From Corallococcus sp. NCRR (GTDB lineage: Bacteria; Myxococcota; Myxococcia; Myxococcales; Myxococcaceae): 64,000 nt of DNA. Made by a program: the position numbers and the translations under genes. Shown in pieces: positions 47,597-52,818 of the stretch. The notes beneath the pieces were generated by a model. That model did not search any database. It saw only the letters and a list, made by a program, of their open reading frames with translations, and was not told the DNA's origin. Location: NCBI RefSeq assembly GCF_026965535.1, contig NZ_CP114039.1:7378001-7442000 (forward strand), in the 5' to 3' direction. How positions within the stretch are numbered: the first letter of the stretch is position 1; every line of letters begins with the position of its first letter.

Positions 47597-48235
47597 CTAG
47601 CGCTGCGACTGGTGCTGCGAGGCGAGCCGCGCCCGGAGCGCGCCCACCAGCATCCCGATGGCGATGTCGTTGTTGCCGCCGTGCGGGATGATGATGTCCG
47701 CGTGGTGCTTGGACGGCTCCACGAAGCCCATGTGCATGGGGCGCACGTGGCGCAGGTACTGGCCCACCACGTGGTCGAAGTCGCGGCCTCGGTCCTTGAT
47801 GTCGCGGGTGAGGCGGCGAAGGATGCGCAGGTCGTCGTCCGCGTCGACGTAGATCTTCACGTCCATCTCGTCGCGCACCTCCTTCATGTGCAGCACGAGG
47901 ATGCCCTCGATGAGGATGATGTCCCCGGGGTCCACGCGGTGCGTGTGCGGCTGACGGCCGGACGTGACGAAGTCGTAGACGGGCTTCTGGATGGCGCGGC
48001 CCTGCTTGAGCGCGCGCAGGTGGCTGACCAGCAGCTCCGTGTCGAAGGCGTCGGGGTGGTCGAAGTTCACCTCCCGCCGCTCTTCGAGGGACATGTCCTT
48101 CAGGTCCCGGTAGTACGAATCCTGATCAATGAAGGCGACCCGGCAGTCGGCGAGAGCCTCACGCACCTTGCGGGCCACCGTGGTCTTGCCGGACGCGGTG
48201 CCGCCCGCGATGCCAACGACGAGGGGTGACGACAT
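47597..48235 (-). CDS. udk: Uridine kinase
   Basis: Udk phosphorylates uridine and cytidine in pyrimidine salvage. From the ATG at 48235 (MSSPLVVGIAGG) it has 212 residues, the family norm. The P-loop GGTASGKT is at 11-18, IDQDSYYRDL at 36-45 and NFDHPDAFD at 57-65. Substrate-site PVYDFVTSGR and the lid RRLTRDIKDRGR are present. The open frame extends further upstream through the gap and into the neighbour, which is not coding. It is the last of the leftward genes here, with 68 bases to the next. Confidence 0.94.
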   Translation of the reverse strand: MSSPLVVGIAGGTASGKTTVARKVREALADCRVAFIDQDSYYRDLKDMSLEERREVNFDHPDAFDTELLVSHLRALKQGRAIQKPVYDFVTSGRQPHTHRVDPGDIILIEGILVLHMKEVRDEMDVKIYVDADDDLRILRRLTRDIKDRGRDFDHVVGQYLRHVRPMHMGFVEPSKHHADIIIPHGGNNDIAIGMLVGALRARLASQHQSQR

Positions 48236-48303: not shown

Positions 48304-49950
48304 TTATGCGCGCCGCAAGAGTCCACGCGCTTGCCCTTCCGCGAGCAGCCAGGCGGGCACGGCCTCCACCTGAAGCGGACCGTCCGCCAGCCCCTGGAGC
48401 CCCGCGGCCACCTCCGGGGGTAGCGTCAGGACCTCGAAGCCCGTCGCCTTCCGGCGGATGGCGAAGCGCCACGGGCCCGGACCCGGCCGGGCGGCCACCT
48501 GTGCCAGGGCCTCCAGGCCGGAGACCTCCAGGGCCCCGCAGGCCCACGCACGGCCGGTGAGGTGCCGCCGTAACGCCCGTGTGGCGAACACCAGCTCCGT
48601 CAGGTCGGCGGGAAAGGAGCCCAGGCGGACGTCCTCGGCCAGCGCCACCTGGCCCGGGGCCGGAGCCGGAGGCGTCTGGAGGAAGGCGTGCGGCAGCATC
48701 ATCTCCAGGGACAGCGCGGCGGCCACCCCGTCCGACGGCGCGGCCATCACGCGCTTGCGCGCCCAGGACGCGAAGGCGTGGGACAGGGACTTGCCCAGCC
48801 CGTCGAAGAGGCCTCGGTACTCGCGAGAGCGGGTGAAGGACTCCAGCCCCTCCGGCGTCGCCGCGAGCAACAGGCGCGTGAGCGGCCAGTCCTTGTCCAG
48901 CTGCTCCGCCACCACCGCCAGCCGGAAGTCCCGGTCCGCGCGCGTGCCCTCGGGGTCCTCGTCCTCCGTGGCCGGGGTGACGCCGTGGCCCGCGTCGAAC
49001 AGCGTCCACGGGCGGCTGTCCCCGCTGAGCCCGGGCACGGCCTCGCGCGACGCGGGGATGTCGATGGGGGCGCGGGACTCCTTCGGGACGAGCGCGCGCA
49101 GCCGCCGCAGCGACGCGAGCGCCACCTCCGGCGGATGGCCATCGCCCTCGAAGGTGACGGCGCGCAGGCGCGAGCAGCGCGGGAGCACCTCCGCGAGCAG
49201 CTCGAACAGCTCCTCGCGCACGGGCTGCGTGTGGTCATCCACGTAGAAGGTCCGCCCTGCCCTGCGCGTCACCACGCCGCCCGCGATGTGGATCTCCACG
49301 ACCTGATCCAACGGGAAGCCCTCCAGCCCCGCGCGCAGGGGCAGGCCCGCGGAGAGCTGGTGGCTGAAGAGGTGACCCAGGTCCAGGAGCAGCGGCAGGC
49401 CCGTGCGCGCGTGCAGCTTCGCCATGAAGTCCAGCGCGTGCAGACCTCCGCGCGTGGCGAGCACGGCGGGGTTCTCAATCACCAGCGGGACGCTCAGGCC
49501 CGCCTGGATGTGGAGCGCGTGCGCCGCGCTGTCCCGCACGCCCGCGTCGTTGAACGGCGGCGTGACGTAGAGGTAGCCCGGGAAGGGCTGGCCGCCCGCG
49601 TGCCACCAGCCCACGTCGTTGCCCACCCACGGGCTGCCCACCGCGCGCGCGTGCGCATCCAGCTCCGCGAGCGCCGACGCGGGCTCCAGCTCCGGACCCC
49701 ACAGGTTCAGGTGCACGGGATGGAAGAGGACCGGCACCTCCGGACGGCGGCGCCACATCTCCGGGAAGAGCGTGGCCTGGGCCTTCGCCTCCTCCAGCGC
49801 GATGGGCGCGCTGTACTCCACGAAGTCGAAGAGACCGGGCGAGCTGTCGAGCAGCCGGTACGGATGCGGCACGTCCGAGGCGCTCAGGTTGCTGCTCAGC
49901 CCCAACCCCATCCAGGGCAGTGACCACGAATCCGATGCAGGGCGCGTCAT
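48304..49950 (-). CDS. DUF692/MbnB-type multinuclear-iron protein with extra C-terminal half
   Basis: The first 290 residues are a DUF692 TIM barrel: GLGLSSNLSASDVP, DFVEYSAPI, LFHPVHLNLWG, NDVGWW, VIENPAV, LLLDLGHLFSH, EIHIAGG, VDDHTQPVREE and AVTFEGDG. Likely iron ligands are His77/His80, Asp112, Glu159, Asn160, Asp190, His193, His221, Asp239/His240 and Glu268. Relatives (MbnB, TglH) modify ribosomal peptides with a partner protein. Here another 260 residues follow; they contain helices (FASWARKRVMAAPSDG) that I cannot assign and could replace the partner. No precursor peptide is obvious nearby. The start is ATG 49950 or GTG 49956. HxlR lies 34 bases upstream on the same strand. Confidence 0.82.
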   Translation of the reverse strand: MTRPASDSWSLPWMGLGLSSNLSASDVPHPYRLLDSSPGLFDFVEYSAPIALEEAKAQATLFPEMWRRRPEVPVLFHPVHLNLWGPELEPASALAELDAHARAVGSPWVGNDVGWWHAGGQPFPGYLYVTPPFNDAGVRDSAAHALHIQAGLSVPLVIENPAVLATRGGLHALDFMAKLHARTGLPLLLDLGHLFSHQLSAGLPLRAGLEGFPLDQVVEIHIAGGVVTRRAGRTFYVDDHTQPVREELFELLAEVLPRCSRLRAVTFEGDGHPPEVALASLRRLRALVPKESRAPIDIPASREAVPGLSGDSRPWTLFDAGHGVTPATEDEDPEGTRADRDFRLAVVAEQLDKDWPLTRLLLAATPEGLESFTRSREYRGLFDGLGKSLSHAFASWARKRVMAAPSDGVAAALSLEMMLPHAFLQTPPAPAPGQVALAEDVRLGSFPADLTELVFATRALRRHLTGRAWACGALEVSGLEALAQVAARPGPGPWRFAIRRKATGFEVLTLPPEVAAGLQGLADGPLQVEAVPAWLLAEGQARGLLRRA

Positions 49951-49984
49951 GGGCACACCCTAACCAGCCCGGCTCCGGGTGGCG

Positions 49985-50437
49985 CTAGCCTTGTGTGACC
50001 GGCCGCTCCAGCCGCACGTCCTGGACCGTCAGCACCCTGCCGTCCGCCGCGCGCACCTCCAGCGGCTTCACCGGCTGCCCGTGCGCCTTGTCGAGCACCC
50101 GCGTCCGGGGCTCTCCCGCCTCGAAGCAGTGCTCCTGGCCCCACTGCCCCAGCGCGACCAGGATGGGAAAGAGGCTCCGCCCCTTCTCCGTCAGCACGTA
50201 CTCCTGCCAGGCGCTGCCGTCCGAGGCCGGCTGCGTCTCGAGGATGCCGTGGTCCACCAGGTGCTTCAGGCGCTGGGCCAGGATGTTCTTCGCCACGCCC
50301 AGGCTCTTCTGGAACTCGCCGAAGCGGCGCAGGCCGTATTGCGCGTCGCGCACGATGAGCAACGACCACCAGTCCCCGATGACGTCCAGGGAGCGGGCCA
50401 CCGGGCACGTCGCCCCTTCCATGCTCGTCCGCTTCAT
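49985..50437 (-). CDS. HxlR-type winged-helix transcriptional regulator
   Basis: HxlR/MarR-like dimers bind palindromic operators and often sense electrophiles or redox changes. The ATG at 50437 has a strong AGGAGG five bases upstream, better than an ATG at 50461; 150 residues result. The family start CPVARSLDVIGDWWSLLIVRD has the conserved Cys11, which is redox-active in YodB-type members. The helix-turn-helix region is YGLRRFGEFQKSLGVAKNILAQRL (about 40-63), then HLVDHGILE. It is divergent from the SDR gene and upstream of the DUF692 gene, so it may control both. Confidence 0.92.
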   Translation of the reverse strand: MKRTSMEGATCPVARSLDVIGDWWSLLIVRDAQYGLRRFGEFQKSLGVAKNILAQRLKHLVDHGILETQPASDGSAWQEYVLTEKGRSLFPILVALGQWGQEHCFEAGEPRTRVLDKAHGQPVKPLEVRAADGRVLTVQDVRLERPVTQG

Positions 50438-50470
50438 CACCGCCTCCTTCCAGAGGGACATTCCACAAGT

Positions 50471-51335: not shown

Positions 51336-51492
51336 TAACGCCCGCTCCCTCTCCCAGGGCCTCAGCTTTCTGAAGACGCCTCAGGTTTCCGAGCACGCGG
51401 AACCGCTCGGGGGACGGTGACTCCAGAGGGGCACGGCGATGGCACTGCTGTTGCTCTGCTCGTGGGGTCACCTCGTCCCACGGGAGTCGTCC

Positions 51493-52818
51493 ATGAACAC
51501 GAACCGGTTGCGGCATCTCTTCTCTCGCGCGCTGCGGACCTCGCTCGCGGCGCCGCTGGTACTCGCGGGCTGCGGCACCGGCGGCACCGGCGGCACGGAC
51601 CTGCGGGGCTACTCGGCCATCAAGTGCACGCCGCACGGTGAGCCCGCCATCGATGACCTGAGCATCGAACCCGCGGTGGACTCCGTCGCGCTGCGCATGC
51701 TCTCGGGTCCCGGCGGGAGCTACGAGACCCGGGACTCCACCGGCGAGGCGTGCGCGACCGCCACCGACGTCCCCGCGTGTCAGACAGCCCTGGCCGAGAC
51801 GAACCCTGGCGACGGCTTCATCAGCTCCTGCATCCAGGTCTGCTCGAGGTACTTCCTGGCGACGACGCGAGGAGATGAGGTGAAGACCTGGGCAACGCTG
51901 CAAGAACTCCAGGACCTGCTGGGCACGGTGGAGACCGCGCAGGACGCGGCGCTCCTCACCTCCGCCGCGGGCTACCGGCTGAGCTGCGGCAACCTGGAGG
52001 AGGGCGCGGTGAAACCGAACCCGGACGGAGGCTTCAACGTCGTGGCCACGAGGGGCTACGCATGCGGCGAGGGTTCGAGCCAGACGCAGTACGTGATCAA
52101 CGTCTCCGCCAACGGAGAGCTCCGCGAAGTGGAGGACCACGTGCTGCGAAAGGGCTCCGGAGAATGTGCCGTGGGCCGCCGGCCCGTGGGGCTGGAGGGC
52201 ACGGTCGCGGGTGATTGTGAGGACGCGCTGGGTCACCACTTCGCCCAGACGGCGCACCTGGAGGCCGCGTCCATCCACGCGTTCCTGCGGCTGCGTGAGG
52301 AGCTGGCCCTGCACGGCGCGGAGGCCACCCTCCAGGACGCGGCGCTCGCGAGCGCCGTGGATGAAGTCATGCACACGGAGATGACAGGACGGCTCGCGCG
52401 CCGTTACGGGGCCACGCCACCGCCGCCCGCCGTCGCCGCCGTCCCCCTGCGCCCGTTGAACGAGGTGGCGCTCGACAACGCCGTGGAGGGATGCGTGCGC
52501 GAGACGTACGGCGCGCTCATTGCCCATCACCAGGCGCTGCACGCACGCGACGCCCAGGTGCGTGAATCCATGGCCCGCATCGCCGAGGACGAGACGCGGC
52601 ACGCGGGCCTGTCGTGGGACATCGACCGGTGGGCGCGCTCACGGCTGCCCGCTTCGGAGCTGGCAGCGCTGCGCGAGGCCCAGAAGCGCGCCGTGTCCCT
52701 GCTGCGCGCGGAGGTCTCGGTGCCGCTCGATTCAGCGCTCGTCACGGAGGCGGGGCTGCCCACGCCGGAGGCCGCGCTGACGCTGCTCGACACGCTGGAG
52801 CAGGAGCTCTGGGCCTGA
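51493..52818 (+). CDS. Lipoprotein with C-terminal ferritin-like domain
   Basis: The ATG at 51493 has GGGAG upstream. A type II signal peptide ends at lipobox LAGC (Cys27), followed by a Gly/Thr repeat (GTGGTGGT). Residues 45-230 contain about eight cysteines and form a separate domain of unknown type. Residues 245-440 look like a ferritin-like four-helix bundle: HLEAASIHAFLRLREEL, VDEVMHTEM, ETYGALIAHHQALH and AEDETRHAGLSWD, giving paired Glu and ExxH ligands. Such domains bind a di-iron centre, unusual in a lipoprotein. The stop codon abuts the stop of the convergent gene. The whole is 441 residues. Confidence 0.82.
   Translation: MNTNRLRHLFSRALRTSLAAPLVLAGCGTGGTGGTDLRGYSAIKCTPHGEPAIDDLSIEPAVDSVALRMLSGPGGSYETRDSTGEACATATDVPACQTALAETNPGDGFISSCIQVCSRYFLATTRGDEVKTWATLQELQDLLGTVETAQDAALLTSAAGYRLSCGNLEEGAVKPNPDGGFNVVATRGYACGEGSSQTQYVINVSANGELREVEDHVLRKGSGECAVGRRPVGLEGTVAGDCEDALGHHFAQTAHLEAASIHAFLRLREELALHGAEATLQDAALASAVDEVMHTEMTGRLARRYGATPPPPAVAAVPLRPLNEVALDNAVEGCVRETYGALIAHHQALHARDAQVRESMARIAEDETRHAGLSWDIDRWARSRLPASELAALREAQKRAVSLLRAEVSVPLDSALVTEAGLPTPEAALTLLDTLEQELWA

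Follow-up and report, generated by a model that had tools for sequence, protein, structure and literature searches.

One open reading frame of the window, by which we mean the whole 64,000-nucleotide stretch of DNA that was analyzed, joins an MNIO (formerly DUF692) barrel to a second half whose predicted fold is that of an MNIO partner. MNIOs usually work as enzyme-partner pairs. We propose that the gene probably encodes a single-chain MNIO holoenzyme which, as we infer for both chemistry and substrate, hydroxylates a residue other than cysteine in a peptide or protein whose gene lies elsewhere. The gene is from the 9.79-Mb genome of a soil myxobacterium, and the records closest to it are from Corallococcus. 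The gene and its first half are:

48304..49950, minus strand: single-chain MNIO plus partner gene (548 aa, protein P0001)
49081..49923, minus strand: MNIO (DUF692) TIM barrel, residues 10-290, from the PF05114 match and the TglH fold match

The frame starts with an ATG at 49950, beyond which there is an in-frame GTG at 49956, and stops at 48304 on the minus strand; a preliminary description of this DNA had given the span, where the frame indeed lies, and had left out the strand. Its identification of a DUF692 barrel proved sound, with a PF05114 match well above the cut-off (residues 33-277, E-value 4.5e-28, 98.7 bits against a cut-off of 25) and with TglH as the top solved structure. In a fold search with the full-length AF2 model (pLDDT 84, pTM 0.78), the barrel aligned to TglH (8hi7_B) with Z 26.0 at 2.9 A over 271 residues, followed by 7fc0_B (MbnB, Z 23.3) and 3bww (Z 20.6), and the protein has the AP-endonuclease-2-like barrel seen in MbnB and TglH. 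The best NCBIfam models were ApyH (94 bits, cut-off 400) and BufB (80 bits, cut-off 310), and because these scores are far below the cut-offs the protein falls outside the named subfamilies. A PHROGs search with the whole fused protein gave no match. The barrel superfamily also takes in endonuclease IV and sugar epimerases, and the protein could in principle be a non-redox Zn or Mn metalloenzyme with a small molecule or nucleic acid as its substrate, which we consider highly improbable. Foldseek also matched endonuclease IV, and the DxxH pattern at site 3 (see below) resembles the endonuclease IV metal site. However, sugar epimerases and similar non-MNIO barrels reach Z of only about 15-16, well short of the 20.6-26.0 of MNIO structures, the match is to the curated MNIO family, and a fused MNIO-partner fold would be left without a role.

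To compare the metal sites with those of known enzymes, we used an alignment of 48 MNIOs, in which two positions are diagnostic:

49147..49722, minus strand: span of the nine ligand positions H77, D112, E159, D190, H193, H221, D238, H240 and E268
49615..49617, minus strand: codon of Asp112, which replaces the site-1 His (TglH His107)
49372..49374, minus strand: codon of His193, which replaces the site-3 Asn (TglH Asn187, HvfB Asn175)

In TglH, Fe1 and Fe2 are bound by His71, His107, Glu151, Asp184, His216 and Glu258, and Fe3 by Asp184, Asn187, Asp229 and His231 (PMC10880893); the counterparts in the fused protein are H77, D112, E159, D190, H221 and E268 for the first two irons and D190, H193, D238 and H240 for the third. 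The expectation that all likely iron ligands would be present is right as to their number, all nine columns being filled and none of the ligands missing, and wrong as to their kind, two of the nine being different (His to Asp112, Asn to His193). These nine residues are invariant in the alignment of the fused family and in all 24 sequences of the Asp/His class, from which the barrel should carry a two- or three-iron centre. With Asp112 and His193, the protein departs from the canonical His/Asn class (MbnB, TglH, HvfB, BufB), whose third-site ligand in HvfB is Asn175 (PMC13419390). It has instead the Asp at site 1 and the His in the site-3 DxxH of the PbsC-like class, PbsC being compared through its published ligands, which come from an AlphaFold 3 model (His97, Asp133, Glu178, Asp213, His216, His247, Asp260, His262 and Glu290; PMC12257519) and fall on the Asp/His side (Asp133, His216). 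The MNIO of a std-like cluster (L081) is Asp/His as well in the 48-MNIO alignment. The two diagnostic columns change together throughout this alignment (24 Asp/His, 24 His/Asn and no mixed sequence), and a single branch with support 100/99 splits the two groups in the tree; the tree has a single change here, so that the columns are coupled by descent and the pattern does not amount to repeated evidence.

The L081 cluster is on a plasmid of Piscinibacter gummiphilus (NZ_CP136338.1), with the MNIO beside carbamoyltransferase and TfuA-like genes, and a nearby 57-aa ORF ends in SNKARQKPW, resembling the StdA motif SNKEWQE. A 533-aa Asp/His MNIO on a Streptomyces europaeiscabiei plasmid (L082, NZ_CP109155.1, 7974-9575) neighbours a YcaO-like gene, a 51-aa ORF and acyl-protein synthase and acyl-CoA reductase genes, possibly forming an uncharacterized peptide pathway. 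Another locus (L090, genome G063) has two adjacent and very divergent Asp/His MNIO genes.

The ligand class bears on the reaction. The ferric site with two His in MbnB holds the thiolate of the substrate Cys (PMC13419390), and one site-1 His fewer would fit a non-Cys substrate. The shift of a His from site 1 to site 3 would alter the place where the thiolate binds and should make the third metal site stronger. The likeliest reaction would be an O2-dependent C-H hydroxylation of a non-Cys residue, because PbsC and the std-like homolog share the Asp/His class; the suggested link between this class and hydroxylation draws on PbsC and StdDE as characterized systems, the latter by way of a homolog, and on a single origin on the tree. 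The coupled His to Asp and Asn to His changes may be a simple sequence marker separating Cys-modifying from hydroxylating MNIOs; a literature search on MNIO ligand variants returned no papers. A protein of the same architecture could also modify Cys as MbnB, TglH and the bufferin maturases do, and would then be a fused variant of metal-binding RiPP maturation. Cys is the target of MbnB, TglH, HvfB and the bufferin enzymes (PMC12452194), and the genome of the window encodes two further MNIOs of the canonical His/Asn class (G000:C1:5009603-5010388, L077, and 1444725-1445537, L078), the former adjoining a DUF2063 partner and a Cys-rich 88-aa ORF. We nevertheless judge Cys modification unlikely, with a ligand class that differs at both diagnostic columns, a branch apart from the genome's two canonical MNIOs and no Cys-rich ORF adjoining the fused gene.

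The second half of the protein was assigned by structure, with the following predicted domains:

48682..49011, minus strand: helical DUF2063-like domain, residues 314-423, from AF2 models and matches to TglI and NGO1945
48310..48651, minus strand: RRE-like winged-helix domain, residues 434-547, from AF2 and matches to TglI, NGO1945 and MibB

The fold search list of the full-length model was filled by the barrel, so we folded the C-terminal half (residues 304-548) alone (AF2, pLDDT 87.4, pTM 0.84). Among 350,542 PDB chains, Foldseek returned three matches at E<0.001, namely two entries of TglI (8hci_A, 5e-5; 8hi7_A, 2e-4) and NGO1945 (3dee, 8.6e-4). VIA-align gave Z 10.7, 10.5 and 8.0 for TglI 8HCI, TglI 8HI7 and NGO1945 3DEE respectively, with MibB next at Z 6.0 over the winged-helix region; the TM-scores to the partner fold are modest (0.41-0.47) and the identities 12-14%. 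The proposal that the extension replaces the usual separate partner is supported by these matches, which are the half's sole ones in the PDB below 0.001 and are to MNIO partners rather than to a domain of clear unrelated function. The profile comparison suggested for this purpose did not succeed, since hhalign found no significant similarity (P 0.26) between the half and standalone partner proteins from related MNIO pairs, and the partner is not visible by sequence alone; hmmsearch with the half's profile against PDB sequences gave nothing meaningful, and Pfam yielded no family at E-values up to 10. PME-type proteins are recognized by the TglI and NGO1945 partner structures in PMC12452194, which also notes the lack of sequence similarity in PME type 2. 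The C-terminal half lacks the Pfam DUF2063 match of PME type 1 and shows the type 2 combination, an NGO1945/TglI-like fold without the DUF2063 signature. The predicted structure thus supports its assignment as an MNIO partner-type module. In four deep-branching members of the family (L025, L026, L073 and L075) the RRE-like domain is cut short at its end, and the fused enzyme may therefore not need a full RRE.

The extension of about 260 residues in the preliminary description corresponds to about 258 residues of real coding sequence, as shown by the conserved fused length and the low dN/dS of the partner half (0.11-0.14 within Corallococcus, 0.39-0.50 against other genera). We found 28 related loci in genome contigs, 54-95% identical and nearly all full-length, and even relatives of 46-57% identity keep the fused length. 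Purifying selection acts on both halves, with the linker (residues 291-335) looser. In a search of 195 Myxococcota genomes, the whole protein was recovered from most of the Myxococcaceae sampled and from a single genome outside this family, in the same order; the fused family is represented in Myxococcus. When the C-terminal half was searched for by its own profile, 75 Myxococcota genomes gave one hit apiece, always within the reading frame of the fused gene and never as a separate gene. The fusion is old and stable.

Other long MNIOs were observed. A 647-aa ORF (L096, genome G020) is a natural fusion of a canonical His/Asn MNIO to a C-terminal DUF2063 domain (E-value 4.5e-16), so partner fusions are not unique to the fused family described here. 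Two canonical MNIOs (L092 in G081 and L095 in G096) continue into a C-terminal half of about 285 aa, for which Pfam gave no match above cut-off in L092, and possibly represent another independent partner fusion. A Streptomyces protein (P0002) also has a long C-terminal half.

The genes on either side of the fused gene are:

49985..50461, minus strand: HxlR-family regulator, 34 nt upstream on the same strand
47597..48235, minus strand: uridine kinase (udk), starting 68 nt downstream on the same strand

No precursor gene adjoins the fused gene, and the gaps of 34 nt (to the HxlR gene) and 68 nt (to udk) hold no fitting ORF, in agreement with the earlier remark that no precursor peptide is obvious; the locus lacks the precursor gene beside the MNIO that marks a RiPP cluster. 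No small-ORF precursor candidate was recognized in the listed gaps of L073, L079 and L080 either. The upstream regulator had been described as of a redox- or electrophile-sensing type. It does belong to the HxlR family (E-value 2e-20), while the RrpB redox regulator model scores 57 bits, below its cut-off of 175. An HxlR gene precedes the fused gene in the window and in five similar Corallococcus-type loci (L001, L002, L004, L006 and L010) and was not found at this place in the other genera compared, and we dropped the redox reading as a functional clue because of this restriction. Upstream genes differ between genera; udk is the next gene in most Myxococcaceae compared. Further along the window, a probable lipoprotein (51439-52815, plus strand) has a weak AurF-like C-terminal match (E-value 7e-4, below cut-off) and is a possible di-iron protein near the MNIO.

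This setting raises the question of a substrate within the cell's own machinery, in which case the partner half would recognize a conserved non-RiPP protein and the gene would be a Myxococcaceae core gene by udk. We regard such a protein hydroxylase as a less likely reading. The gene is single-copy in almost all Myxococcaceae sampled, often neighbours udk and is surrounded by no biosynthetic cluster; MNIOs acting on large proteins have been proposed (PMC12452194), and one 34-kDa substrate is known (PMC12636315). Against it, genes of a MacAB-TolC-type exporter directly precede deep-branching relatives and point to a product that is exported. In L025, L026/L074, L073 and L079, a gap of 3-30 nt lies between the permease genes and the fused gene that follows them, and the L074 set comprises an OEP-family outer-membrane protein, an HlyD-type protein, an ABC ATPase and two MacB-type permeases (Pfam identity was checked for this set and for one L073 permease). 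The arrangement hints at an exported peptide. We also considered a relative of this exporter in the genome of the window (7.463-7.465 Mb), which includes that genome's nearest relative of the permease, about 35 kb from the fused gene, and rejected it, as it is followed by a GNAT gene, with no MNIO and no precursor recognized.

In the holoenzyme that we favor, the C-terminal half most likely docks on the barrel, by analogy with TglI and HvfC. By the same analogy, it would bind the substrate's leader or recognition segment as an additional beta-strand and assist the iron centre in attaining its active state, the part that TglI and HvfC play as separate proteins. The substrate would have to be encoded elsewhere. 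A natural single chain with a 1:1 stoichiometry fixed by evolution offers a convenient system for the tuning of an iron centre by its partner, which has so far been studied in an engineered HvfBC fusion. Because the gene is widely kept in Myxococcaceae and has no precursor gene beside it, one may ask what it modifies; in the less likely reading as a core-genome MNIO without a precursor, it would hydroxylate a specific residue of a cellular protein and be a protein-modifying oxygenase outside natural-product biosynthesis with a built-in recognition module.

A literature search combining Corallococcus and DUF692 returned no papers, and the searched literature, which left out many subscription papers and included some sources in part, contained no description of a natural fusion of an MNIO to a full partner. 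Among known systems, TglHI (pearlin, 3-thiaglutamate) provides the best match to the barrel (TglH) and to the C-terminal half (TglI), but consists of two separate proteins, has His107/Asn187 where the fused enzyme has Asp112/His193 and acts on a C-terminal Cys. PbsCD, which carries out Phe ortho-hydroxylation in biphenomycin-like peptides, shares the nine-residue pattern with Asp/His at the diagnostic places (PMC12257519) and has an RRE-containing partner; this partner is separate, and the cluster holds a precursor and other tailoring genes. For StdDE, which performs homocitrulline bis-hydroxylation (PMC13174530), a std-like homolog (L081) shows the shared Asp/His pattern; StdDE differs by a separate partner and a cluster with YcaO-TfuA and a carbamoyltransferase. 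MovX, ChrH and PflD each carry an extra domain on the MNIO chain (PMC13419390, PMC12636315 and PMC12636437), whereas the added part is respectively a winged helix only, a small helical bundle and a nitroreductase, none being described as a full partner module. The engineered HvfBC fusion has an MNIO and a full partner in one active chain (PMC13419390), and differs in being laboratory-made, in having the third-site Asn (N175) of canonical enzymes and in acting on a Cys substrate.
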